Program-made: the position numbers and the translations under genes
The notes under the pieces: model-generated
What the model was told of the DNA's origin: nothing
Seen by the model: only the letters and a program-made list of their open reading frames with translations
The model's database searches: none
NCBI RefSeq assembly: GCF_002849655.1
Contig: NZ_PDNW01000012.1
Coordinates: 62,001-126,000 of the forward strand
Reading direction: 5' to 3'
DNA from: Pollutimonas subterranea
GTDB lineage: Bacteria > Pseudomonadota > Gammaproteobacteria > Burkholderiales > Burkholderiaceae_B
Length of the DNA stretch: 64,000 bases
In this document: positions 5,365 through 32,643 of the stretch, piece by piece
Position numbering within the stretch: position 1 is the first letter of the stretch
Layout: each line of letters begins with the position of its first letter

Positions 5365-7674
5365 TTACACCGGCGACAGTGAGGGCTGCTTGACCTTTAT
5401 CGACAAGGCCTTGCCCTTGCGGGCGCGTTTTCCCACATATTCTTCCAAGGCGGCCGTATCGAGTTCCAGCACCGTTTCCTTGTTGCGGTACACCCCGCTG
5501 GCCAATATGCCAGCCGCGCCTCCGGGTACCCATTGGGCCAGGATATCACCTGCATCCAGGCCCATCAGAATGGTACCCCGCCCACCGCCCGACAGGGATT
5601 TGAGTTCGGCCAGATCAACGACCAGAAAGCGCCCTTTCCTGGACAGCATGGCAATATATTGATCCGTGGCACGCAGCGCCATGGGCTTCAATAGAACGTC
5701 GTCCTTTTCCAGCGTGACGAATTGCTTGCCTGCCCGCTGGCGCGACGCAAGGTCCTTGAGCGTCGTCATGAAGCCATAGCCGGCTTGTGTACCCAGCACA
5801 TAGCGCTGGGTTGGCGGGCCCGCGACCATGTGCGTAATCCGGGTGCCCGGCTCCATGTCTATCATGGTCGTAACGGGCTGGCCATCGCCACGTGCTGAAG
5901 GCAGGCCGGCCACGGCCACGGTGTAGACGCGGCCACTGGTCGAGAAAGCAATGAGGTCATCGGTGCTGCGGCATTCGATGGCATCGTAAAGGCCGTCGCC
6001 CGCCTTGAAGCTGAACTGCCCTGCATCGTGGCCATGTCCCTGGCGGGTACGCAGCCAGCCGCGCTGCGAAATAATAACGGTTACCGGTTCCTCGACAACC
6101 CGATTCTCGAGCACTGCGCGTTCCGCGGTTTCGATGAGTGTGCGGCGGTCATCGCCATACGTTTTCGCGTCGGCTTCGATTTCCTTGATCATCAGGCGCT
6201 TGAACGCATTGGGATTATCCAGCAACTCCTGGAGTGCGGCCTGCTGTTCCTTCTGTGCGGCCAATTCCTTCTCTATCTTGAAGCCTTCCAGTCGCGCCAG
6301 TTGGCGCAGCCGCATTTCAAGAATGTCTTCAGCCTGGCGCTCGGATAAATCAAAGCGCTGCATCAGTGCGGCGCGAGGATCATCGGATTCGCGTATGGTC
6401 TGGATTACCTCGTCCACGTTCAGGTAGACCACCATCCGGCCTTCCAGCACATGAATCCGGTCGGTGACTTTATCCAATCGGAACTGGGTGCGGCGCGTAA
6501 TGGTATGCGCGCGAAAGCCCAGCCAGTCGGTCAGGACCTGGCGCAGGGAACGCTGGCCAGGCCGTCCATCGGTGCCGATACAAACCAGGTTGATGGAGAC
6601 ACCCGTCTCCATGCTGGTCTGTGCAAGCAGAGTGTTGACGAATTCATTACGATCCACGCGACTGCTTTTCGGCTCGAAAACCAGGCGTATGGAAGCCTGT
6701 TTGCCGGATTCGTCGCGCACCGTGTCCAGCAAGCCCAGAATCAGGGCCTTGGTCTGCTGCTGATCGTTACTCAGGCTTTTCTTGCCGGCCTTGATCTTCG
6801 GGTTGGTCCTGTCTTCGATTTCTTCCAGGATCTTCTGCGACGAGGTGCCGGGCGGCAGCTCGGTAATCACCAATTGCCATTGCCCTCGGGCAAGCTCCTC
6901 GAACTGCCAGCGTGCACGGGCCTTGATCGAGCCTCGTCCCACGCTGTAGATATGCGCGATATCGGCCGGCGAAGAAATGATCTGTCCGCCTCCGGCAAAG
7001 TCCGGCCCGGGCACCAGGGCATAGAACTCTTCATCGGAAAGCTTGGGGTTCTTGATGAGGGTCACGCACGCGCTGGCGATCTCTCGAAGATTATGCGCAG
7101 GAATCTCTGTGGCCATACCCACCGCAATGCCCGAAGCGCCATTGAGCAACATGACAGGCAGCCGGGCGGGCAGCAGCATAGGCTCTTTCTGGCTGCCATC
7201 GTAATTCGGTGCGAAATCAACGGTCCCTTCATCGAGCTCGTCGAGCAGCACGCGGGCAAAAGGGGTAAGCCGGGCTTCGGTATACCGCATGGCCGCGGCA
7301 TTATCGCCGTCGCGCGAGCCAAAATTACCCTGGCCATCCACCAGGGGGTAGCGCAACATGAAGTCCTGCGCCATTCGCACCATGGCATCGTAGGCCGCCT
7401 GATCCCCGTGAGGGTGATACTTACCCAGCACATCGCCGACGACACGGGCGGACTTGACAGGCTTGGCCCCGGACGTCAGGCCCATGGCCTGCATGGAATA
7501 AAGGATGCGGCGTTGGACCGGCTTTTGGCCATCGGTCAGATCGGGCAATGCCCGCCCGCGAACCACCGAAACCGCGTAATCCAGGTAAGCCTGCTCGGCA
7601 TAATGCGCGAGCGTAATACTGTCGCCGTTCGGTGCTTCATCGAACAAGCCTGTTTGTATACTATCCATTGTCAT
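5365..7674 (-). CDS. parC: DNA topoisomerase IV subunit A
   Basis: A 769-aa breakage-reunion subunit that decatenates daughter chromosomes with ParE. Visible are the [12 protein letters not shown] region, [20 protein letters not shown] and the catalytic tyrosine in AMRYTEARL (about residue 128), followed by the C-terminal beta-propeller. The length fits ParC rather than GyrA, and the GyrA-box is not evident. At the two quinolone-resistance positions (E. coli Ser80/Glu84) this protein has Gln92 and Asp96. A second ATG two codons downstream (7668) has a better-spaced AGAG and could be the true start. It follows parE by 12 bases. Confidence 0.95.
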
Positions 7675-7686
7675 CTCTGTGTGGAT

Positions 7687-9648
7687 TTAAACGTCGACTT
7701 CGGCCAGATTGCCTTTCTGCTCGAGCCAGATGCGCCGTTGCGCCGATTCGCCCTTGCCCATCAGCATGTCGAACATTTGCGTCGTCGCCGCGAGCCCCAG
7801 GTCGCCGTACGCCACGGGCGTAAGCCGCCGGGTGTCCGGGTTCATGGTCGTGTCCCATAGCTGTTCCGCGCTCATTTCGCCCAGGCCCTTGAAACGGCTG
7901 ATGCTCCACGATGCCTCGCGTATGCCTTCCTTGCGAAGCTTGTCCTGCGCCGCATCGAGTTCGCCCTGGTCCAGGCAGTACACCTTGCGGGCAGGTCGCT
8001 TGCCGGCAGCAGGTACGTCCAGGCGGAACAATGGGGGGCGTGCGACATAGACATGTCCGGCTTCAACCAGCTTGGGGAAATGCCGGAAAAACAGCGTCAG
8101 CAACAGCACCTGGATATGCGAGCCGTCCACGTCGGCATCCGACAAAATGCAGACGCGCCCATAGCGCAGGCCCGAAAGATCGGCCTTGTCGTCGGGCCCG
8201 TGGGGATCCACGCCAATGGCCACCGCAATATCGTGAATCTCGTTATTGGCGAACAACCGGTCGCGGTCGACCTCCCAGGAATTCAAAACCTTGCCGCGCA
8301 GTGGCAAGACAGCCTGGAATCCCTTGTCGCGTCCCATTTTTGCCGAACCGCCGGCCGAATCCCCTTCGACCAGGAAAACCTCGGTTCGGGAAATATCGTT
8401 GGATTCGCAATCCGTCAACTTGCCAGGCAATACCGCCACACCGGAGCTTTTCCGCTTCTCGACCTTCTGCGCCGACTTGGCGCGTGCCTGCGCCTGCCGT
8501 ATGGCGCTCTCGGCCAGCTTCTTGCCGTATTCGACATGGGCATGCAGCCAGAGATCCAGCGCATTCCGGGAGAATCCGCTGACTAGCCGTACGGCATCCC
8601 GGCTATTCAGCCGTTCTTTGATCTGTCCCTGGAACTGTGGATCGAGGACCTTGGCGGACAAGACGAAACTGGCCCGCGCAAAGACGTCTTCGGGCAATAA
8701 CTTGACACCCTTGGGCACCAGGCTGTGCAGCTCGGCAAACGACTTGACGGCATTGAACAAGCCGTCGCGCAGCCCGGCTTCGTGGGTACCGCCGGCCGTG
8801 GTCGATATGAGGTTCACGTAGGATTCCCGTACCACCGCGCCGTCAGCCGTCCACACGACCACCCAGTGCGCGCCTTCGCCCGGAGCAAAGGAATCATCAT
8901 CATCGGCGGCATATTGCTTGCCCTCGAAGACCGGTATGATTCTCTCGGCATCGCCCAAGGCCTCTTCCAAATAGCCCCGCAAGCCCTCTTCATACTGCCA
9001 TTCGCGGGTTTCGCCGGTTTTTTCTATAGTCAGCGTAACCTTGATGCCATTCAGCAGCACAGCCTTGCTGCGCAACACATGCACAAGCTCGGCCATAGGT
9101 ATGGCGGCCGAGTCAAAATACTTCGGATCGGGCCAGACCCGCACCCGCGTGCCGGTTTTCTTGCGCCCGACCGGATCGAGCTGTTCCAAAGGCTTGATGA
9201 CATCGCCATTGGCAAATACCAGTTCATGTGTCTTGCCGTCACGCCACACGCGTACTTCCAGTCGCGTGGACAGAGCATTGGTGACTGAAACCCCGACGCC
9301 ATGCAGGCCGCCGGAAAACGCGTAGGCACCACCGTCTTTCTTGTCGAACTTGCCGCCGGCATGGAGTCGCGTAAACACCAATTCGACCACGGGAGCGTGC
9401 TCTTCGGGGTGCAGTCCCACCGGAATCCCGCGGCCGTCATCCTCGACGGTCACACTCGCATCGGCGTGCAGGGTCACCTTTATCTGCTGGACGAAACCGG
9501 CCAGGGCTTCGTCTGCGGCATTATCGATGACCTCCTGGATAATGTGCAGGGGGTTGTCGGTACGTGTATACATGCCCGGGCGTTGCCGCACAGGCTCCAG
9601 CCCTTTCAGGACTCGGATGGATGCTTCGTCGTAGCGTGGTGTAGCCAA
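7687..9648 (-). CDS. parE: DNA topoisomerase IV subunit B
   Basis: A 653-aa GHKL ATPase subunit. ATP-site motifs are [13 protein letters not shown] and [11 protein letters not shown] near residues 40-80, then [15 protein letters not shown]. The TOPRIM domain shows [21 protein letters not shown] and the metal-binding [10 protein letters not shown]. The C-terminus ends in [13 protein letters not shown]. The start is TTG at 9648, since the next Met (PGMYTR) would remove the conserved N-terminus; a GAG precedes it by six bases. parE and parC form a two-gene unit, and the ferredoxin-reductase, dadA and solute-binding protein genes follow in the same direction. Confidence 0.95.
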
Positions 9649-9776
9649 TTTTTTCTCGAATTTTCGGTAGTAATTACGGTATTTTACGGAGTATGCGCTT
9701 TATTGCAGCCGATGCGCCTCGTACCGCCATGGAGGTAACGTCTTGTGCGCAGCCCGGCTGTCGGTGGTATGCTTGT

Positions 9777-9801
9777 AAAAAAACGGGCGCCAGGCGCCGT
9801 T
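9777..9801 (-). terminator. Intrinsic-terminator-like hairpin facing parE
   Basis: On the minus strand, arms 9801-9793 and 9791-9782 pair with one bulged base and are followed by seven U residues (A-run at 9777-9783). It lies ~130 bases upstream of the parE start with no minus-strand gene upstream. It could attenuate a long parE leader or stop antisense transcripts from trxA. Confidence 0.45.
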
Positions 9802-9884
9802 TGCACTTATTAGAATACATGGTCTTGCTGTCTTGTCTCCCGGCAGCAAATTCAAGTCACTATCATCTTCTTAGTTTTCCTATC

Positions 9885-10211
9885 ATGAGCGAATCTATCA
9901 AACACGTGAGCGACGCGTCTTTCGAGAATGACGTCCTGAACTCCGACGTACCCGTCCTGGTCGACTACTGGGCTGCATGGTGCGGGCCCTGCAAAATGAT
10001 CGCCCCGCTGCTCGAAGAGGCCGCTGGTCAGTACGAGGGGCGTGTTATCATAGCCAAAGTCGATGTCGACGAAAACCCCGAAACAGCTGCCAAGTTCGGC
10101 ATTCGCGGAATCCCGACCCTCATGCTCTTCAAAGACGGCAAGCCTGCCGCCACCAAAGTTGGCGCACTGTCCAAGTCACAACTCAATACCTTCCTAGACG
10201 AATCCCTGTAA
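9885..10211 (+). CDS. trxA: Thioredoxin 1
   Basis: A 108-aa thioredoxin; the frame is open further upstream but ATG 9885 gives the family's usual start and length. The active site WCGPC has cysteines at 33 and 36, preceded by [10 protein letters not shown]. The cis-proline loop is [12 protein letters not shown]. It is a cytoplasmic general disulfide reductase kept reduced by thioredoxin reductase. It is divergent from parE and lies 67 bases upstream of rho, an arrangement shared by many proteobacteria. Confidence 0.96.
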
Positions 10212-10225
10212 AAGGTCGTTTTCGC

Positions 10226-10246
10226 GCGAGCCTGCTCTAGGCTCGC
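10226..10246 (+). terminator. Hairpin in the trxA-rho gap
   Basis: An 8-base perfect stem (10226-10233 with 10239-10246, 5-base loop) lies 15 bases after trxA. No U-tract follows, so it may be a weak terminator, an mRNA-stabilising hairpin or part of the rho leader. Confidence 0.35.
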
Positions 10247-10278
10247 CACTACTTTGCAAATACCCCCTCTTTCCACAC

Positions 10279-11535
10279 ATGCATCTCACCGAATTAAAAG
10301 CACAGCACGTTTCGAAGCTTCTCGAAATGGCCGCCGCCCTTGACATAGACAATGCCAGCCGGCTGCGCAAACAAGAACTGATGTTTGCCATCATGAAGCG
10401 GCATGCCAAGCAAGGCGAACAGATTTTTGGCGACGGCGTTCTTGAAGTCCTGCCTGACGGCTTTGGCTTCCTGCGCTCGCCTGAAACCTCCTACCTGGCC
10501 AGCACCGACGATATCTACATTTCGCCGTCACAGATCCGTCGCTTCAATCTGCACACCGGTGACTCCATCGAGGGCGAAGTTCGTACTCCCAAAGACGGCG
10601 AACGCTATTTCGCATTGGTCAAGGTCGACAAAGTCAATGGCATGCAGCCCGAGGCCATCAAGCATCGCATCATGTTTGAGAATCTCACGCCGCTGCATCC
10701 AGACGAAGTCATGACTCTTGAACGCGACATCAAAAGCGAAGAGAACGTGACCGGCCGCATCATGGATATCTTTGCCCCGATCGGCAAAGGTCAGCGCGCC
10801 CTCATCGTAGCCAGCCCCAAATCCGGTAAAACGGTCATCATGCAGCACATGGCCCACGCCATCAGCACCAACTATCCTGACGCGGTCATGATCGTGCTGC
10901 TGGTCGATGAACGCCCGGAAGAAGTCACCGAGATGCAGCGCACCGTACGGGGTGAAGTCGTGGCATCCACGTTCGACGAGCCGGCTACCCGCCACGTGCA
11001 AGTGGCCGAAATGGTCATTGAAAAAGCCAAGCGCCTGGTCGAACTCAAGAAAGACGTCGTCATCCTGCTTGATTCCATTACACGCTTGGCACGCGCCTAC
11101 AACACCGTGGTTCCTGCGTCCGGCAAAGTCCTTACCGGCGGTGTGGACGCCAACGCACTGCAGCGCCCCAAACGGTTTTTCGGGGCTGCCCGCAACGTTG
11201 AAGAAGGCGGCTCGCTTACCATCATCGGCACAGCCCTGGTCGAAACAGGCAGCCGCATGGATGAAGTCATCTACGAAGAATTCAAGGGCACCGGCAATTC
11301 CGAAGTTCATCTGGAACGCCGCCTGGCCGAAAAACGCGTCTATCCGGCCATCAACCTGAACAAGTCCGGTACGCGTCGTGAAGAACTCTTGATCAAACCA
11401 GAACTTCTGCAGAAAATCTGGGTGTTGCGCAAGTTCATCCACGACATGGACGAACTCCAGGCGATGGAATTCATACTGGATAAAATTCGCGCGACCAAGA
11501 CCAATTCCGAATTTTTCGACATGATGAAGAAATAA
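10279..11535 (+). CDS. rho: Transcription termination factor Rho
   Basis: A 418-aa hexameric RNA-dependent ATPase/helicase. The N-terminal helical region begins [18 protein letters not shown]. The cold-shock-like RNA-binding domain follows ([20 protein letters not shown]). The Walker A is [12 protein letters not shown] with Walker [15 protein letters not shown], and the Q- and R-loop region is [20 protein letters not shown]. Length matches the E. coli protein almost exactly. gdhA starts only 5 bases after the stop, so the two may be co-transcribed. Rho commonly controls its own leader; the 67-base gap with a hairpin is where such control would act. Confidence 0.97.
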
Positions 11536-25108: not shown

Positions 25109-25207
25109 TCGCAGGAATTGCGTGCTTGTGCAGTAAAATCGCCGCAAATTCCCCGAACCTGCCCGAAAATGCTGCATAAGCAGCTCACCCTCCGCCGCTG
25201 TACCCGT

Positions 25208-25936
25208 ATGCAAAAGAAAATTACCGTTACTCCCGATTCAACCCGTTGTTCGACATGCATGCTTAGCGAGATATGCCTGCCATTGGGCATGGCTCGCCAT
25301 GACGTCGACAAACTGGACGAACTGATCAAGGAACGGATCCGCATCCCGAAGGGGTCGGCGCTTTTCCATCTGGGTGACAAGGCTGAGGCGGTGTACGGCA
25401 TACGATCCGGATCGCTGAAGACGCAACTGGAAGATGTCAACGGCCAGGTTCAGATCACCGGCTTCCTCCTTCCAGGTGAAATCCTGGGCATGGACGGCTT
25501 GCTGGAAAATCGGCAGGTATCCCACGCCCTTGCGCTTGAAGATAGCGAAGTATGTGTAATACGCATCGACGAACTGGACCAGCTATCACAGCACCTGCCG
25601 GTTCTGAACCAGCAGCTTCGACGCCTGATGAGCAAGGAAATAAACCGCTCGCATCAATTGGTGATGTCGCTGGGTTCATTGCGTTCGGAACAACGCCTGG
25701 CTGCTTTTCTGATTAATTTGTCGCAACGCCTAGCGGCACTGGGCTATTCGTCCACCGAATTCCTGCTGCGCATGAGCCGCGAGGAAATCGGCAACTACCT
25801 GGGTCTGACCTTGGAAACAGTAAGCAGGCTGTTTTCGCGCTTCGCCCGCGAAGGCGTGCTGCATATCCAGCAACGCCAGGTTCACATCATCGATATCCAG
25901 GCCCTGCGCGCCCTGGCCGGCACCGATTGCGGTTGA
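25208..25936 (+). CDS. fnr: FNR/ANR-type oxygen-sensing transcription regulator
   Basis: A 242-aa CRP-family regulator. The start is ATG 25208, placing cysteines 14, 17 and 23 (RCSTCMLSEICLP) at the N-terminus like FNR Cys20/23/29. Cys116 (SEVCVIR) is the fourth [4Fe-4S] ligand. The recognition helix LTLETVSRLFSRF keeps the E-x2-S-R residues that read TTGAT. Without oxygen the cluster drives dimerisation and DNA binding. It is encoded next to the cbb3 oxidase genes, two promoters of which carry perfect FNR boxes. Confidence 0.93.
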   Translation: MQKKITVTPDSTRCSTCMLSEICLPLGMARHDVDKLDELIKERIRIPKGSALFHLGDKAEAVYGIRSGSLKTQLEDVNGQVQITGFLLPGEILGMDGLLENRQVSHALALEDSEVCVIRIDELDQLSQHLPVLNQQLRRLMSKEINRSHQLVMSLGSLRSEQRLAAFLINLSQRLAALGYSSTEFLLRMSREEIGNYLGLTLETVSRLFSRFAREGVLHIQQRQVHIIDIQALRALAGTDCG

Positions 25937-25985: not shown

Positions 25986-26234
25986 TTAAATAGGGTCGCC
26001 GAAGTCGTCGAGCACCTGGCCGCGCGGCGCCATATGCAGGGTCAAGGCACTGGACAGCGCTGCCATGATCCAGAACAGGAAGAAACCCGCCGCATACGCG
26101 AACTGCCGGCCTATCTGCACGTAGCCCAGAAAATTGATGTCGAGTGGATCGACAAGCGCGAACACCGTAGCACTGGTGGCGCCCGCGATAAGAAACGATG
26201 GCCATAATACCCACATTAACGCACGCCACTTCAT
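25986..26234 (-). CDS. Small two-helix membrane protein of the cco cluster
   Basis: An 82-aa protein with two hydrophobic segments (about residues 5-28 and 45-68) and a hydrophilic tail ending DDFGDPI. GGGGGG just before ATG 26234 gives a good ribosome site. I do not recognise a named family. It is the last gene of the run ccoN-O-Q-P-ccoG-fixH, 30 bases after fixH, so a role in oxidase assembly or stability is plausible but inferred from position only. Confidence 0.65.
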   Translation of the reverse strand: MKWRALMWVLWPSFLIAGATSATVFALVDPLDINFLGYVQIGRQFAYAAGFFLFWIMAALSSALTLHMAPRGQVLDDFGDPI

Positions 26235-26264: not shown

Positions 26265-26531
26265 TCAGTGTTCCGGCGACGCTTGCGTCGGATTCGTTGC
26301 TACCGCCGGTTTGCTTACCACCAGTCCCCGCTTGATGCCGCCATCAGTAATTGCCTGATCGCTAAAATTCTGCACAGCGAGAAAGATGGTAATAATACAG
26401 CCAATCATAGCTGCAGCAGGGCCCGCCATCAGTATCCAGGGCCAGGGTTCACGCCACCACGGTTTGGCGGGGCGTGGTTCCATCTGTTCTTTGGTAGCGA
26501 CTTGCGGCATAAGACCTTCCTTTGTCGACAT
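26265..26531 (-). CDS. Short FixH-like protein
   Basis: An 88-aa protein with one transmembrane helix (~28-50). The motif KPWWREPWPWILMAGPAAAM then AVQNFSDQAITDGGIKRGL matches the N-terminal third of FixH, where the usual form is an aromatic W-P-W stretch and a Y-K-x-G-L. The C-terminal beta-rich domain of full-length FixH (~160 aa) is absent, and the next gene leaves no room for it. FixH works with FixG/CcoG in copper delivery to cbb3 oxidase. Its ATG directly abuts the ccoG stop. Confidence 0.7.
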   Translation of the reverse strand: MSTKEGLMPQVATKEQMEPRPAKPWWREPWPWILMAGPAAAMIGCIITIFLAVQNFSDQAITDGGIKRGLVVSKPAVATNPTQASPEH

Positions 26532-28034
26532 TTACTTGGGTACAAAAAAGCTGGAGCGTTCGACCACGACATTCTCGTCACCCTCGGCGGAAGTCGCCGT
26601 CGCCGTCAGATTGATGTCGTAGAGTCCTGGCTTGACTTCCTGGGTCGGAGCCCGCAGCACCACCGGTACCAGTTTATTGGACGCGGCGTCGATTTCCAGC
26701 GAGTTCGAGGAACTGTCGGCAGTGAGTATGGACAGACCCGGCACGCCGCTGGCTCCAAGGGTGATCGTCAACGGAGATTCTGTCGTATTGATGATTTGAA
26801 GGCGGTACACGTTTTCTATCATTCCGCCGGCCACCTCGCGTCCGAGTACGCCTCGATCCCGGATCACGTCCACGCGCAGCGTAGTGCGCGTCACCAGCGA
26901 AATGACAAAGGCAATGCTGATTAGCGTGAGAATGGCCATGTACGCGAGAACACGCGGCCGGAACAAGCGCTTGCGTACCTGCGGCTGGGTAAGGCCTTCG
27001 GTAATGGCCCGGCCCGATGTATAGCGGATCAATCCTTTCGGATAGTCCATTTTTTCCATGACCTGGTCGCATGCATCGACACAGGCGCCGCAACCTATGC
27101 ACATGTACTGCAAGCCGTCTCGGATGTCGATGCCAGTAGGACAGACCTGCACACACAAGCTGCAATCGACACAATCCCCCATGCCCGCTTCTTTGTGATC
27201 GATACGGCGCGAGCGTCCTCCCCGCGGTTCGCCACGCTCAAAGTCGTAGGTGACCACGTAGGTGTCATCATCGACCATAACGCTTTGGAATCGCGCGTAG
27301 GGGCACATGTACTTGCAAACCGCTTCACGCATGAAGCCCGCATTTCCCCACGTGGCGAATGCATAGAAGGCCATCCAGAACCATTGCCACGGCCCCAGCG
27401 ACAAGGTAATCAAGCCCATGCCCAGTTCGCGTATCGGCGCAAAATAACCGATGAAGGTAGAGCCGGTCCACCAGGCAATGAGAATCCAGACGGTGTGCTT
27501 GGCGGCTTTCAGTCGCAGCTTGCGCCAGGTCCAGGGCTGTTCGTCCAGGCGTATGCGCGCTAACCGATCGCCCTCGATGCGGCGTTCGACCCACATGAAG
27601 ATTTCGGTGTAGACGGTTTGTGGACAGGCGTAACCGCAGAACAGGCGCCCGGCCATGGCGGTAAAGAGAAATAACGCGAAGGCCGACAGCACCAGCAAGA
27701 CCGCGAGGTAAATCACGTCTTGCGGCCACAGCACCATGCCGAATATGTAGAACTTGCGCGCGGCCAGGTCCAGCAATACTGCCTGGCGCCCGTTCCACTG
27801 CAACCATGGAAGACCGTAGAAAATGAGCTGGGTCAGCACGACCATGGCAATGCGCCAGTGCGCAAACAAGCCCGACACCGAACGTGGATAAATCTTCTTG
27901 CGTACGTCGGCCAGGGCCTTTTCGACCTGAGGAGACGAACCACCGCCCACTTTCGTGACCCGCGGCGGCTGCCAGGCCGGTGCTGCCGCCGTTGCAGGGC
28001 CTTGTTCCGGGTTTACGGATGGTTCGCTACTCAT
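26532..28034 (-). CDS. ccoG: Cytochrome cbb3 oxidase accessory protein CcoG
   Basis: A 500-aa membrane ferredoxin (RdxA/FixG family). Several N-terminal transmembrane helices are followed by two 4Fe-4S binding motifs: CVDCSLCVQVCP and CIGCGACVDACD. An extracytoplasmic immunoglobulin-like C-terminal domain follows. Family role: a cupric reductase supplying Cu(I) for CcoN maturation. A conserved FCGYACPQTVYTEIFMWVER motif lies in the membrane part. It lies 9 bases after ccoP and is followed immediately by the fixH-like gene. Confidence 0.93.
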   Translation of the reverse strand: MSSEPSVNPEQGPATAAAPAWQPPRVTKVGGGSSPQVEKALADVRKKIYPRSVSGLFAHWRIAMVVLTQLIFYGLPWLQWNGRQAVLLDLAARKFYIFGMVLWPQDVIYLAVLLVLSAFALFLFTAMAGRLFCGYACPQTVYTEIFMWVERRIEGDRLARIRLDEQPWTWRKLRLKAAKHTVWILIAWWTGSTFIGYFAPIRELGMGLITLSLGPWQWFWMAFYAFATWGNAGFMREAVCKYMCPYARFQSVMVDDDTYVVTYDFERGEPRGGRSRRIDHKEAGMGDCVDCSLCVQVCPTGIDIRDGLQYMCIGCGACVDACDQVMEKMDYPKGLIRYTSGRAITEGLTQPQVRKRLFRPRVLAYMAILTLISIAFVISLVTRTTLRVDVIRDRGVLGREVAGGMIENVYRLQIINTTESPLTITLGASGVPGLSILTADSSSNSLEIDAASNKLVPVVLRAPTQEVKPGLYDINLTATATSAEGDENVVVERSSFFVPK

Positions 28035-28043
28035 GATATATCC

Positions 28044-28967
28044 CTATTTTGCTGCTACGTTACTACCCTGATTCGAGAGTCCCCACACCCAAGCGGTGAG
28101 CATGCGGATCTGGGCTTCAGTCAGAATGCCTTCCTGCGCCGGCATGATGTTCTGGCGCCCATTGAGGATGGTTTCCACAATGGAGGCCTCGGAACTGCCG
28201 TACAACCAGATACCGTCGGTCAGGTTGGGCGCGCCCATGGCCGTATTGCCCTTGCCCTCGACACCGTGGCAGGCCACGCAAAAGGTATCGAAGCCACGTT
28301 TGCCGGGCACGACCCGCAAGGAGTCGCTGGCCAGGCCCGAGAGCGAGCGCACATACTGGGCAATGTCGGCGGCTTCGCTGGGCTTGATCTGGGCGCTCCA
28401 GGGCGGCATCATGCCATGACGACCTTTGGTGATCGTTTGCATGATCTGCTCTGGATCGCCGCCGTATAACCAATCGCCGTCGGCAAGATTCGGAAAGCTT
28501 CCACTACCCCGGGCGTCAGACCCATGACACTGTGCACAGTTGTTCAGGAACAGGCGCTGACCGATTTCACGAGCCTCGGCATCGTGCGCGACCTGGGTGA
28601 CCGGCATTTGCTGATAGCGTTCGAACAATGGCTTGATCTGTTCGTTCAAGGCCAATTGCTCGTCCTTGACTTGCTTGGCGGCCGTATACCCCAGCGTGCC
28701 CTTGTAACTGCCTACGCCAGGATACAAGAACAGCAGAGCCAGGGCGACGACGCACAAGCCCAGGTAGAAAACGGTCCACCAGCGCGGCACCGGATTATTG
28801 AGTTCGGTAAGGTCGCCGTCCCAGATGTGTCCTGTATCCGTGACCTGCTTGACGTCCTGCTTGAGCCAGGCGCGCTGGCTATACAGCAACCATATGCAAA
28901 AGGCGATTCCGCCCAGGGCAATCACACCAATGAAGTAGCTCCAGAAGCTACTGACGAAATCACTCAT
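28044..28967 (-). CDS. ccoP: cbb3-type cytochrome c oxidase subunit III (CcoP)
   Basis: A 307-aa di-haem cytochrome c. Start ATG 28967 gives MSDFVSSFWSYFIGVIALGG, the typical N-terminus; the frame extends further upstream but the sequence there overlaps ccoQ and is not CcoP-like. Two transmembrane segments (about 8-30 and 60-80) are followed by two haem-binding motifs, CAQCH and CVACH. It passes electrons from cytochromes c to CcoO and CcoN. The ATG overlaps the end of ccoQ by 8 bases, implying coupled translation. Confidence 0.94.
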   Translation of the reverse strand: MSDFVSSFWSYFIGVIALGGIAFCIWLLYSQRAWLKQDVKQVTDTGHIWDGDLTELNNPVPRWWTVFYLGLCVVALALLFLYPGVGSYKGTLGYTAAKQVKDEQLALNEQIKPLFERYQQMPVTQVAHDAEAREIGQRLFLNNCAQCHGSDARGSGSFPNLADGDWLYGGDPEQIMQTITKGRHGMMPPWSAQIKPSEAADIAQYVRSLSGLASDSLRVVPGKRGFDTFCVACHGVEGKGNTAMGAPNLTDGIWLYGSSEASIVETILNGRQNIMPAQEGILTEAQIRMLTAWVWGLSNQGSNVAAK

Positions 28968-29133
28968 GGGATCCCCCATCATTCTTGTTGATTGGTCGTT
29001 CGTCCGGCACGGCAAAGGGCAAGAGCGAAGCCTCGTGGTTGGCATCGGCACGGCCGCGTGAGAACGCCCACCATACGATGCCAAGGAAAGTCGCCATGGC
29101 GACGATCGTCATTATTCCGTTGAGCACTGCCAT
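28960..29133 (-). CDS. ccoQ: cbb3-type cytochrome c oxidase subunit IV (CcoQ)
   Basis: A 57-aa protein read directly from the sequence: MAVLNGIMTIVAMATFLGIV, then WWAFSRGRADANHEASLLPF and a hydrophilic tail ending GGSHE. It has one transmembrane helix followed by the WWAFSRGR type of junction seen in CcoQ proteins. Family role: it stabilises the CcoNOP complex. The ATG at 29133 abuts the ccoO stop and the 3' end overlaps the ccoP start, exactly the order expected for ccoNOQP. Confidence 0.88.
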   Translation of the reverse strand: MAVLNGIMTIVAMATFLGIVWWAFSRGRADANHEASLLPFAVPDERPINKNDGGSHE

Positions 29134-29793
29134 TTACAGGCCTCCATCCGAAACAGCCTTGGCGGCCGCAGCACGGCCCGCCACGCCCAAACCTTGCAGG
29201 TAGGCGACCAGTGCGTCTTCTTCGGTCTTGCCTTTCAATTGCTCAGGCGCCTTGGCGATCTGTTCATCGGTGTACGGCACACCCAGTGTGCGCAGCACTG
29301 ACATGCGGTCCTGCACGTTTTCATTGGTCACCGAATTATGCTGCAGCCATGGGTAGCTGGGCATATTCGATTCTTTCACCACATCGCGCGGATTGCGCAG
29401 GTGGATACGATGCCAATCATCCGAATAACGCTGACCAACCCGGGCCAGGTCGGGGCCCGTGCGTTTGGAACCCCACAGGAACGGATGGTCGTACCGCGAC
29501 TCACCCGCCAGTGAATACGGACCATAGCGCTGGACTTCCGAGCTGAGCATCCGGATCTGCTGCGAATGGCAGCTGACACAGCCCTCGCGGATGTAGATGT
29601 CGCGCCCGATAAGATTGAGCGGCTCGTAGGGCTCGACGCCTTCAGTGGGAGTCGTTGTCGAGTGCTGAAAAAACAGCGGCACGATCTGCGCCAGACCCGC
29701 AAACGAAATAACGGCAATACTTAAAATAATCAGCAGGCCGACATTTTTTTCCAATGTCTTGTGCGAAAAAAAACCATGATCTTGCTTGGACAT
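29134..29793 (-). CDS. ccoO: cbb3-type cytochrome c oxidase subunit II (CcoO)
   Basis: A 219-aa mono-haem cytochrome c. ATG 29793 is chosen because [20 protein letters not shown] is the usual start. It has one transmembrane anchor (~18-40) and the haem motif CVSCH at residues 72-76 ([14 protein letters not shown]), followed by [20 protein letters not shown]. It relays electrons to the catalytic subunit CcoN. Its start overlaps the ccoN gap by a few bases, and its stop abuts ccoQ. Confidence 0.95.
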
Positions 29794-29804
29794 TACGGTT
29801 CTCC

Positions 29805-31289
29805 TCAAGCAGTAGTCGACGCAGGTCCGAGCAAGGCCGGATCACGCGCATCGGGACTGAACAAAGGCACGACCGGATTCACCTTGACCTGGCCTTTGAC
29901 CGTCAACCATGTATTCCAGGCCATGACGAAGACGCCGCCCAGGAAGCACAGGCCGCCCAGCATGCGAATGACATAGAAGGGATAAGTGGCCTTGACCGCT
30001 TCGACGAAGCTGTAGGTAAGGGTGCCATCGACGCCCGTGGCGCGCCACATCAAGCCTTGCATCACCCCGGCGATCCACATCGCGCTGATATACATCACCA
30101 CGCCCAGCGTCGCCAGCCAGAAATGCAGCTCGATGAGCTTGGTGCTGGCCATGGCGCTGCGGCCATACAGCCGGGGAATCATGTAGTACAGCGACCCGAA
30201 GGTGATCATGGCCACCCAGCCCAGGGCACCTGAATGCACGTGTCCGATCGTCCAGTCGGTGTAATGCGACAAGGCGTTGACCGTGCGGATGGACATCATC
30301 GAACCTTCAAAGGTGGACATGCCGTAGAACGACAGCGCCACGACCAGGAACTTCAAGATAGGATCGGTACGCAGCTTGTGCCAGGCGCCCGACATCGTCA
30401 TGATGCCATTGATCATGCCGCCCCATGATGGCGCAAGCAGGATCAACGATAGTGCCATGCCGAGCGACTGGGTCCAGTCAGGCAGCGAGGTGTACAGGAG
30501 ATGATGCGGGCCGGCCCACATATAAGTGAAAGCCAGTGCCCAGAAGTGGACGATGGACAAGCGATAGGAATAGATCGGACGCTCGGCCTGCTTGGGCACG
30601 AAGTAATACATCATGCCCAGGAAGCTGGTGGTCAGAAAAAAACCCACGGCATTGTGGCCATACCACCACTGCACCATGGCGTCCTGGACGCCGGCGTAAG
30701 CGGAATACGACTTCCACATTGAGACCGGCAACGCAAAGTTGTTGAATATGTGCAGGACCGCAATGGTAAGTATGTATGAACCATAGAACCAGTTGGCCAC
30801 GTAGATATGCTTGACCCTGCGCTTGACGATAGTGCCGAAGAACACCACCGCGAAGGCAACCCACACCAAGGTCAGCAGGATATCGATAGGCCATTCAAGT
30901 TCGGCATACTCTTTCGTACTGGTGTAGCCCATGGGCAGCGTGATGACGGCAGCGACGATGACGGCCTGCCAGCCCCAAAACGTGAACGCCGCCAGCTTGT
31001 CGCTGTACAGGCGTGCCTGACAGGTACGCTGCACCACGTAATAGGCTGTGGCGAACAAGGCACTGCCGCCGAACGCGAAAATGACCGCGTTGGTATGCAA
31101 TGGCCGCAAGCGGCCGTAGCTGAGCCAAGGAATATCGAAATTCAGTTGCGGCCATATGAGTTGTGCGGCGATCCATACACCGACCGCCATGCCTACCACA
31201 CCCCATACTATGGTCATGATCGTGAACTGACGAACCACACCATAGTTGAAGATTTCGGCCTGTTTTCCGAACGTATCGGAAGTGCCCAT
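29805..31289 (-). CDS. ccoN: cbb3-type cytochrome c oxidase subunit I (CcoN)
   Basis: A 494-aa haem-copper oxidase catalytic subunit with about twelve transmembrane helices. Metal-ligand motifs are visible: [14 protein letters not shown] (low-spin haem His), [20 protein letters not shown] (Cu-B His and the cross-linked Tyr region), [18 protein letters not shown] (two Cu-B His) and [14 protein letters not shown] (haem ligands). It reduces oxygen to water and pumps protons under low oxygen. It is first in the ccoNOQP-ccoG operon, behind a perfect FNR box. Confidence 0.97.
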
Positions 31290-31443: not shown

Positions 31444-31674
31444 CTATTTCTCGCGCTGGCGCCCATTTTCCGCAAGCGAAGCAGGCTTTGCCGCGTCGCG
31501 ATCTTCCGTCGTGGCGAGGTTTTCACCAGGGGCGTCATTATCGTTCAGTATGGACTCGCCTCGCGATTGCGTATCGTCGAACTGACCCGAAAAGATCGCC
31601 CACCAGAAAAACACTCCTATCACGATCACGAAGACCAGCGATATCGGCAACAGCAGAAACAGAGACGACGCCAC
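31444..31674 (-). CDS. ccoS: cbb3 oxidase assembly protein CcoS
   Basis: A 76-aa protein with one N-terminal transmembrane helix (LLLPISLVFVIVIGVFFWWA) and the CcoS signature FWWAIFSGQFDD directly after it. A longer than usual hydrophilic tail (~45 residues) follows. The start is GTG at 31674 with CGGAG seven bases upstream, lying 3 bases after the ccoI-like gene. Family role: maturation of CcoN, needed for haem and Cu-B insertion. Confidence 0.88.
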   Translation of the reverse strand: MASSLFLLLPISLVFVIVIGVFFWWAIFSGQFDDTQSRGESILNDNDAPGENLATTEDRDAAKPASLAENGRQREK

Positions 31675-31677
31675 GCA

Positions 31678-32643
31678 TCAGCTCCGGGCGACCGCGGACT
31701 GCCAATCGCCGCTGGATACGCGAATCTGCGAGCGGTACAGACGCCACGAATTTGCTGCTACAGCCAGCGAGGACAAGAGCATGGATATGGCGGCCAGCCA
31801 CGGCGCGACAAATCCCAATGCGGCAAGAGGCGTCATCAGGAGATGCCACGCGACGGAGGCATAGAGGTTCTGCCTTGAAATACGGCCAGTGGCCTGGACC
31901 AGGCGCACAATATCGATATCCTGGGCCGGCGCGCCGGCTGAAAGGCTTGCGTGCGCCGCAGCGACGGCAGTCGGTACCGCCATGGCCATCGCACAGGGAC
32001 AGCTCATTACCAGCAAGGAAACCATTACCGCTACGGCATGCTCGGGCGCGTAGACGTACCAGACCGCCCCCACCAAGAATGCGAGGGCCAGCTGAATGAC
32101 GACAAACCAGAATGCCAGCTGATTGGCGCGCTGCGTGACAGCAAGCCGGAATTCCTCGATGACGCGATGAGCCTTGCCCACACCTACCGCCTGGCGTGCA
32201 CAGAGCTCGAGATAACGGGCGGTCAATAAAAATGCCACGAACATGGTGACAGAGTCGAAATAGACTTCTCCGTTGTCGAACCAGGTCGCGTAGGCACTGG
32301 GAATGAACGCCGCAATAATTCCAAGCGCCACCGGCACGTCCATGCTGACCCTGCCCTGCATCAGGCGGCTGAACGCCCCGCCCCAGACCGGCCACGCGCA
32401 ATAAAGCACGACGGGGACGGTGAGCACGAGGCTGATCCAGTTCATGATAAAGATGGCCTGATCGAGCAGCGCCAGGTTATCGGGCGCCATGCTTTCGCTA
32501 CGCAGATAGCCCGGGAACGCAAACATCATGACCTGCATCATCCCCAGCCAAGCCAGCCCCATACGCGCAAGCATGTGGCGGCGCTTCTGGCGATCGGAGC
32601 CAGACAGGCCTTGGGGTGTGGAAAAAATCGAGAAGGCGCGCAT
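31678..32643 (-). CDS. CcoI-like copper P-type ATPase membrane domain lacking all catalytic domains
   Basis: A 321-aa protein that is almost entirely transmembrane helices. It keeps GMMQVMMFAFPGYL, the region up to YLELCAR, and the CPC metal-site helix (VMSCPCAMAMAVPTAVA). It then passes straight to a segment resembling the last two helices (RISRQNLYASVAWHLLMTPL, PWLAAISMLLSSLAVAANSW). The N-terminal metal-binding domain, the TGE actuator loop, the DKTGT phosphorylation site, the nucleotide domain and the GDGxND hinge are all absent, about half of a normal CcoI/FixI (~750 aa). The frame is continuous and the gene sits where ccoI belongs, before ccoS and behind a perfect FNR box, so it is probably functional. 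It cannot hydrolyse ATP alone. Confidence 0.85.
   Translation of the reverse strand: MRAFSIFSTPQGLSGSDRQKRRHMLARMGLAWLGMMQVMMFAFPGYLRSESMAPDNLALLDQAIFIMNWISLVLTVPVVLYCAWPVWGGAFSRLMQGRVSMDVPVALGIIAAFIPSAYATWFDNGEVYFDSVTMFVAFLLTARYLELCARQAVGVGKAHRVIEEFRLAVTQRANQLAFWFVVIQLALAFLVGAVWYVYAPEHAVAVMVSLLVMSCPCAMAMAVPTAVAAAHASLSAGAPAQDIDIVRLVQATGRISRQNLYASVAWHLLMTPLAALGFVAPWLAAISMLLSSLAVAANSWRLYRSQIRVSSGDWQSAVARS

Follow-up and report, generated by a model that had tools for sequence, protein, structure and literature searches.

A CcoI orthologue reduced to its membrane domain, with an apparently rebuilt copper site, is conserved in cbb3 oxidase clusters of Alcaligenaceae

The window, a 64,000-nucleotide stretch of the Pollutimonas subterranea genome (contig NZ_PDNW01000012.1), contains a cbb3 oxidase cluster, arranged as ccoI-ccoS-ccoN-O-P-G-H, and fnr on the opposite strand (Table 1). 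Its ccoI gene, referred to here as short ccoI, is an uninterrupted, ATG-initiated open reading frame encoding 321 aa, and its end is separated by 3 bases from the assigned GTG start of ccoS. A first-pass annotation had placed the gene in the ccoI position of a cbb3 assembly cluster, behind a perfect FNR site. The position was confirmed beyond the window: ccoS and ccoN follow short ccoI in 26 of 26 loci (the window and 25 others). For ccoG, no match was found in locus L057, and the contig of L063 stops before the gene. The perfect FNR-type box was located as well, and 31 of 37 short-form loci have such a box, with no more than one mismatch, 35 to 80 bp upstream of the gene; in 24 of these the box is perfect. 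We regard it as a putative promoter element of short ccoI.

Table 1. Features of the cbb3 cluster, in window coordinates
Feature	Position	Strand	Basis or remark
Short ccoI; 321 aa, membrane domain only, 8 helices (MA, MB, M1-M6)	31678..32643	-	ORF and alignment to full CcoI
Remnant loop, residues 154-168, at the site of the lost actuator domain	32140..32184	-	Alignment
CPC codons, C215-P216-C217, M4	31993..32001	-	Each residue in 37/37 short forms
Remnant loop, residues 230-254, at the site of the lost P and N domains	31882..31956	-	Alignment
W266-H267 codons, M5 (Tyr-Asn in full CcoI)	31843..31848	-	Sequence and alignment
Putative FNR-type box, perfect, TTGATCTAGATCAA	32679..32692	-	Far end 49 bp ahead of the short ccoI start codon
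ccoS	31444..31674	-	TIGR00847 and PF03597 over cut-off
ccoN, with YGHN and GPHH motifs	29805..31289	-	TIGR00780 over cut-off; motif count
ccoO	29134..29808	-	Position and synteny only
ccoP, start codon uncertain	28044..29084	-	Position and synteny only
ccoG	26532..28034	-	TIGR02745 over cut-off
ccoH, 88 aa, also short	26265..26531	-	PF05751 over cut-off
Conserved 82-aa protein downstream of ccoH	25986..26234	-	Without Pfam or NCBIfam match
Fnr-type regulator	25118..25936	+	NF008365 over cut-off

CcoH (FixH) was also short, at 66 to 105 aa in 34 of the 36 short-form loci with a match; values of 254 and 265 in the remaining two probably reflect starts called too far upstream. Its length was 64 to 100 aa in five neighboring full-CcoI loci (L064, L177, L183, L194, and L195). 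Among the other 17 full-CcoI loci, it was 165, 171, and 177 aa in three and 74 aa in L178, with no match in 12 of the 17 and one value unusable. Because CcoH is already short in the five neighboring full-CcoI loci, its shortening probably preceded that of CcoI. Genes like that of the 82-aa protein were present in 30 of 37 short-form loci, all five neighboring full-form loci, and 1 of the 17 other full-form loci.

Alignment showed that the short protein covers MA, MB, M1, and M2, then M3-M4, and then M5-M6 of full CcoI, and that its start coincides with the end of the N-terminal metal domains in full CcoI. The A-domain segment (residues 151 to 175) has a median of 25 residues in short forms versus 131 in full CcoI, and the P/N segment (residues 226 to 258) has 33 versus 286 (22 full-length sequences). 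Neither DKTGT nor GDGIND occurred in any of 37 short forms; CxxC was likewise absent from all 37, indicating that the N-terminal CxxC metal domains are gone, and the bare letters TGE occurred in 3. In profile searches, the short protein scored 69.6 bits against the NCBIfam model TIGR01511, whose cut-off is 397, and its match to PF00122 was limited to profile positions 108 to 178 of 181. An AlphaFold model was all-helical and of moderate quality (pLDDT 81.3, pTM 0.74). Its best matches among solved structures were P1B copper ATPases (7r0g, 4bbj, and ATP7B; TM 0.47 to 0.51), with two fold matches reaching an E value of 0.001 or lower, and a profile search of the sequences of solved structures placed the same kind of protein on top. 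The alignment and motif counts uphold the initial description of a product that keeps the CPC helix and flanking helices and is missing the ATP domains and N-terminal metal domains. The product is a CcoI by descent and, by definition, no P-type ATPase.

The metal site was compared between 37 short and 22 full CcoI sequences. C215, P216, and C217, together with the M6 residues Met288 and Ser291, were invariant in all 37 short and all 22 full sequences. In PMC8475189, an N-M-S set of residues, Asn included, is the second membrane copper site (TM-MBS2) of CcoI. The short form departs from this site at the Asn and retains M288 and S291: at position 267, the M5 copper ligand, all 22 full sequences have Asn and all 37 short ones have His (as do 44 of 44 in alignment A1). 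At the adjoining position 266, Tyr stands in 21 of the 22 full sequences, versus Trp (33) or Phe (4) in short forms. Short forms also carry Gln at position 184 in M3 (37 of 37, versus Leu, Ile, Val, or Thr in full CcoI), mostly Met at position 221, four residues past CPC (31 of 37, versus Leu in 22 of 22), and mostly Gly at position 262 (31 of 37, versus Trp in 21 of 22). An acidic residue, D or E, occupies position 130 in every short and full sequence, and two positions are variable in the 37 short forms, namely 146 in M2 (32 E, 1 D, 4 A) and 174 (25 D, 12 N). Over 296 shared columns, short forms averaged 15.6 Met and 5.8 His versus 12.3 and 3.4 in full CcoI, with overlapping ranges. Because CPC, Met, and Ser are invariant while the M5 Asn became an invariant His, the copper site has been retained and rebuilt and is more than a leftover. 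The change of the M5 pair from YN to WH, as read from the alignment, had been missed by the first-pass annotation, as had the extent of the distribution described below.

The first survey comprised 61 genomes, 37 of them from Alcaligenaceae including the window genome (G000). The short form was found in 26 of these 37, where it occupies the place of full ccoI in relatives. A ccoN gene over the family cut-off was found in 30 of the 37, which are exactly the 26 short-form genomes and four with full CcoI (G015, G016, G030, and G033). The 7 genomes without ccoN over the cut-off, among them G025, which is 75% complete, gave a weak short-form match (E value of 3e-7 or worse) or none. A larger set of 250 Alcaligenaceae genomes contained 183 that matched the short form, of which 168 were short-type, 14 were full, and 1 was undecided (G105). 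A best E value of 1.8e-77 or better defined 164 short-type genomes (the best full form reached only 4.3e-36), with counts below an E value of ∼2e-93 based on the E value as sole criterion. Open frames for this set were taken from among the matches listed, and the frame of G272, counted as short-type, is partial. The remaining 19 of the 183 comprised 15 genomes that were re-examined and 4 known from the 61-genome survey. This added four short-type genomes, G254 (two aligned pieces in one frame), G087 (contig edge), G209 (a two-piece match skipping ∼50 residues, an apparent internal deletion), and G117 (interrupted gene). The 14 full-length genes were assigned by open frame, and the 9 of them whose sequences were extracted each have DKTGT.

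Genera with the short form included, among the best 80 of 285 matches, Pollutimonas, Pusillimonas, Alcaligenes, Achromobacter, Castellaniella, Paenalcaligenes, and Pelistega. Outside the family, 349 genomes of the order and 299 of the phylum gave no single-stretch short-form match among the matches listed. Frames of less than 500 aa found there (G415, G484, G350, G817, G785, and G811) match the first half of the short form only; those of G484 and G785 lie within ∼220 bases of a contig end, and in G415 the second half is present in another open frame of the same contig. The short form is clade-wide. The first-pass annotation had named a full-length gene at this place in close relatives, a sign of assembly error or recent deletion, as grounds against its reading; across the 26 short-form genomes, close relatives carry the short gene in place of a full one.

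In a membrane-domain tree (FastTree), the short forms made up one clade (37/37; local support, 0.69), and a clade of the short forms and the full CcoI proteins of the five neighboring loci had a support of 1.00. The interrupted gene of L186 (G117) was excluded from trees and residue counts. A second tree split CcoI, short and full, from 27 other P-type ATPases including CopA with a support of 0.891; in the membrane-domain tree, the printed label of the CcoI/CopA split was only 0.22 after rerooting. A CcoN+CcoG tree of 49 loci, which omits L057 and L063 (no ccoG match) and the 8 of 22 full-form loci without a ccoN or ccoG of more than 400 aa, again placed the short-form loci in one clade (35/35; support, 0.973). 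The sister of that clade comprised four of the five full forms, and the fifth branched next. Since both trees show a single clade, the ATP motor was most likely lost once, in an ancestor of most cbb3-bearing Alcaligenaceae, and passed on with the operon. G030 (L064) belongs to genus g27, like several short-form genomes, yet it has a full CcoI and a cluster that branches outside theirs; an exchange of the whole cbb3 cluster is possible.

Selection was assessed as the median pairwise dN/dS (NG86; pairs with dS of 0.05 to 2). For short ccoI, the 26 Achromobacter genes (324 retained pairs) gave 0.138, with a highest value of 0.265, and the 9 Pollutimonas-like genes (34 retained pairs) gave 0.104. 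Values in the Achromobacter comparison were 0.064 for ccoN, 0.084 for ccoG, 0.122 for ccoS, 0.145 for ccoO, and 0.241 for ccoH. Short ccoI is under purifying selection, and the values of 0.10 to 0.14 contradict the neutral decay that had been named as grounds for doubting a useful gene. Conservation, cbb3 linkage, and a probable usefulness are well supported. Across the 37 short forms, the mean share of the top residue was lowest in the C-terminal tail (0.29) and the two remnant loops (0.38 and 0.43); it was 0.73 to 0.89 in the helices except M3 (0.57), 0.60 at the N terminus, and 0.57 in the short stretch 84-96. In L186 (∼6590 to 10358), short ccoI is split by ∼1.1 kb and ccoN lies in two overlapping pieces, a cbb3 locus that is decaying. 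The short ccoI frame of L189 (G267) stays open far upstream, giving 747 aa from the most distant start and no DKTGT; the extension is probably a GC-rich open frame and possibly a fusion.

Other P-type ATPases were sought in the same genomes. The window genome contains 13 other PF00122 places, and tree placement of all 13 put none among CcoI. Each of 14 screened short-form genomes has at least one P-type ATPase. G018 (2.0 Mb) and G027 (1.7 Mb) combine an intact short form with one PF00122 place each at an E value of 1e-15 or lower; the ATPase at this place has MxCxxC, CPC, and YN and groups with CopA in the tree. Within an 8-kb stretch around this CopA-like gene lies a PCuAC gene in G018 and an SCO gene in G027. 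In G000, G018, and G027, the other ATPase genes are on different contigs or hundreds of kilobases from short ccoI. No CcoI-clade ATPase was found in short-form genomes in trees that included the 13 of the window genome and selected ones of 10 others. The search for a second full-length CcoI, which the first-pass annotation had proposed, came out negative for the window genome, by tree placement of its 13 ATPases, and for G018 and G027 at the threshold just given. A split gene with its ATPase parts encoded apart was also rejected for G018 and G027, where the only PF00122 place at the same threshold is part of a complete CopA-like gene.

PCuAC and SCO were present in 30 of 30 ccoN genomes. Of six further genomes searched, none with ccoN over the cut-off (G025 left out), five had them as well. 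Because they also occur in the latter, their presence permits a periplasmic route and does not prove it or single it out. No difference in the presence or absence of periplasmic chaperones was seen between short- and full-form genomes. Elsewhere in the window genome (L208; contig C33, 36500 to 50000) lies a second oxidase-like cluster, divergent from the first and encoding a 531-aa subunit I-like protein, a 217-aa subunit II-like protein, and further proteins of 319 and 378 aa. It has its own 739-aa P-type ATPase with MxCxxC, CPC, and YN.

In the accepted view, cbb3 oxidase assembly depends on CcoI exporting cytosolic Cu(I). The short CcoI resembles CcoI/FixI/CtpA, the CopA2-type P1B-1 ATPase of cbb3 assembly, in locus, gene order, clade, eight helices, CPC, and the M6 Met/Ser, but it is without the N-terminal metal, A, P, and N domains and has Trp/Phe-His in place of the M5 Tyr-Asn. 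CopA, the CopA1-type exporter (3j08, 7r0g, and 3rfu/4bbj), supplied the best solved matches by profile and, by fold, 7r0g and 4bbj, whereas the short form falls outside the CopA clade and CopA retains the motor and the YN pair. Cox11, SCO, and PCuAC are periplasmic or membrane-anchored soluble domains, unlike this eight-helix membrane protein, and Cox11 delivers Cu(I) to the oxidase copper site without ATP. The likeness of the short form to these three lies in the way of working only: Cu(I) would reach the copper site of an oxidase without expenditure of ATP. For SCO and PCuAC, such a hand-over is described in PMC7558416 and PMC8267372.

PMC8475189 presents R. capsulatus CcoI as an ATP-driven Cu(I) exporter, with ∼2% oxidase activity in a CPC mutant and reduced protein amounts of mutant CcoI variants. 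Surplus CopA cannot substitute for CcoI in that organism (PMC8475189), and R. capsulatus CcoI therefore does more than raise periplasmic copper. The paper further states that the ccoI deletion was not restored by copper in earlier assays and that, in a DMPD assay, copper lifted activity from <10% to ∼30%. A C. jejuni ccoI deletion was largely rescued by copper, as given in PMC8267372. Copper insertion is on the periplasmic side, yet the copper is routed via the cytosol, and the review that notes this calls the dependence on the cytosolic pool puzzling (PMC7558416). Since transport by R. capsulatus CcoI is ATP dependent, a form lacking the motor might fail to sustain CuB insertion in that organism.

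We propose that the short CcoI, a motorless CcoI orthologue, persists as an integral membrane protein that binds Cu(I) and hands it over for use in the cbb3 oxidase, a reading to which we assign a probability of roughly 55%. In this relay, whose Cu(I) step and direction we infer, a pocket formed by CPC, Met288, Ser291, and His267 would take up Cu(I), probably from the periplasmic chaperones SCO/SenC and PCuAC or else from copper released by the general exporter CopA. From the short CcoI, Cu(I) would pass to the CuB site of CcoN, with CcoS perhaps taking part. The transfer would be driven by differences in affinity, not by ATP, and what is essential about CcoI in the Alcaligenaceae lineage would be its site for docking and hand-over, not its pump. 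An invariant site with a new His, combined with the loss of CxxC, would fit such a relay better than a leftover channel. More tentatively, and at somewhat less than even odds, the protein may be an ATP-free membrane metallochaperone made from a P-type ATPase, with CuB loaded without cytosolic pumping through CcoI, by copper that comes from the periplasmic side via the rebuilt CPC/His/Met site.

The main rivals to the relay are a passive channel and a partner of CopA. In the channel or uniporter reading, loss of the domains that drive the gates of the membrane domain would leave Cu(I) free to move down its exchange gradient between cytosol and periplasm. The eight aligned helices, the retained CPC, Met/Ser, and most of the M2 acidic residues agree with this, as does the predicted fold with its P1B copper ATPase matches, but the CxxC metal site is absent from all 37 short forms and a W/F-plus-H pair in M5 would seem better suited to holding metal than to passing it. 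Moreover, outward flow of Cu(I) against the membrane potential is unfavorable without energy input, and we consider the channel rather unlikely. Less likely again is that the short form docks to CopA or another P1B pump, receives copper from it, and guides it to CcoN, which is a variant of the relay idea and not its opposite. The P-type ATPase in each of the 14 screened genomes, single and CopA-like in G018 and G027, speaks for such a partner, and so does the PCuAC or SCO gene near it in those two genomes. Against it stand the distance of the other ATPase genes from short ccoI in G000, G018, and G027 and the R. capsulatus finding of PMC8475189 that surplus CopA is no replacement for CcoI.

A pure assembly scaffold for CcoN, CcoS, and CcoH without any copper role would explain why short ccoI accompanies the oxidase genes in 26 loci, but it appears improbable given the invariant metal residues, the fixation of a metal-type ligand as His267 (37/37), and Met221 in 31 of 37. 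It is very improbable that the work is actually done by another full-length CcoI encoded elsewhere: one of the 13 other PF00122 places in the window genome does adjoin the second oxidase-like cluster, but none of the 13 is among CcoI, and G018 and G027 have only the CopA-like place at the E value threshold of 1e-15. A degenerate leftover or an assembly artefact is hardly credible. The broken short ccoI and ccoN of G117 and the ∼50-residue gap of G209 look like decay, but the short type recurs in 168 of 250 family genomes, its dN/dS is low, and the gene is intact in two genomes of 1.7 to 2.0 Mb; the artefact or pseudogene reading was rejected on this recurrence and on purifying selection.

Searches of the openly licensed PMC literature on ccoI in Bordetella or Alcaligenaceae and on truncated P-type ATPases yielded no description of such a form; fixI and cbb3 are named together with Bordetella pertussis in some of its papers. 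We know of no earlier example in nature of a P-type transport domain that works in the absence of its motor, and the short CcoI would be the first, if the proposal is true. Across most of the family, the oxidase and the metal-binding membrane portion of CcoI are retained and the pump is gone. The short CcoI could let the pumping role of CcoI be separated from its hand-over role and opens the question of whether the copper step of cbb3 assembly needs pumping at all. Beyond the oxidase, it bears on whether a P-type transport domain can operate without ATP.
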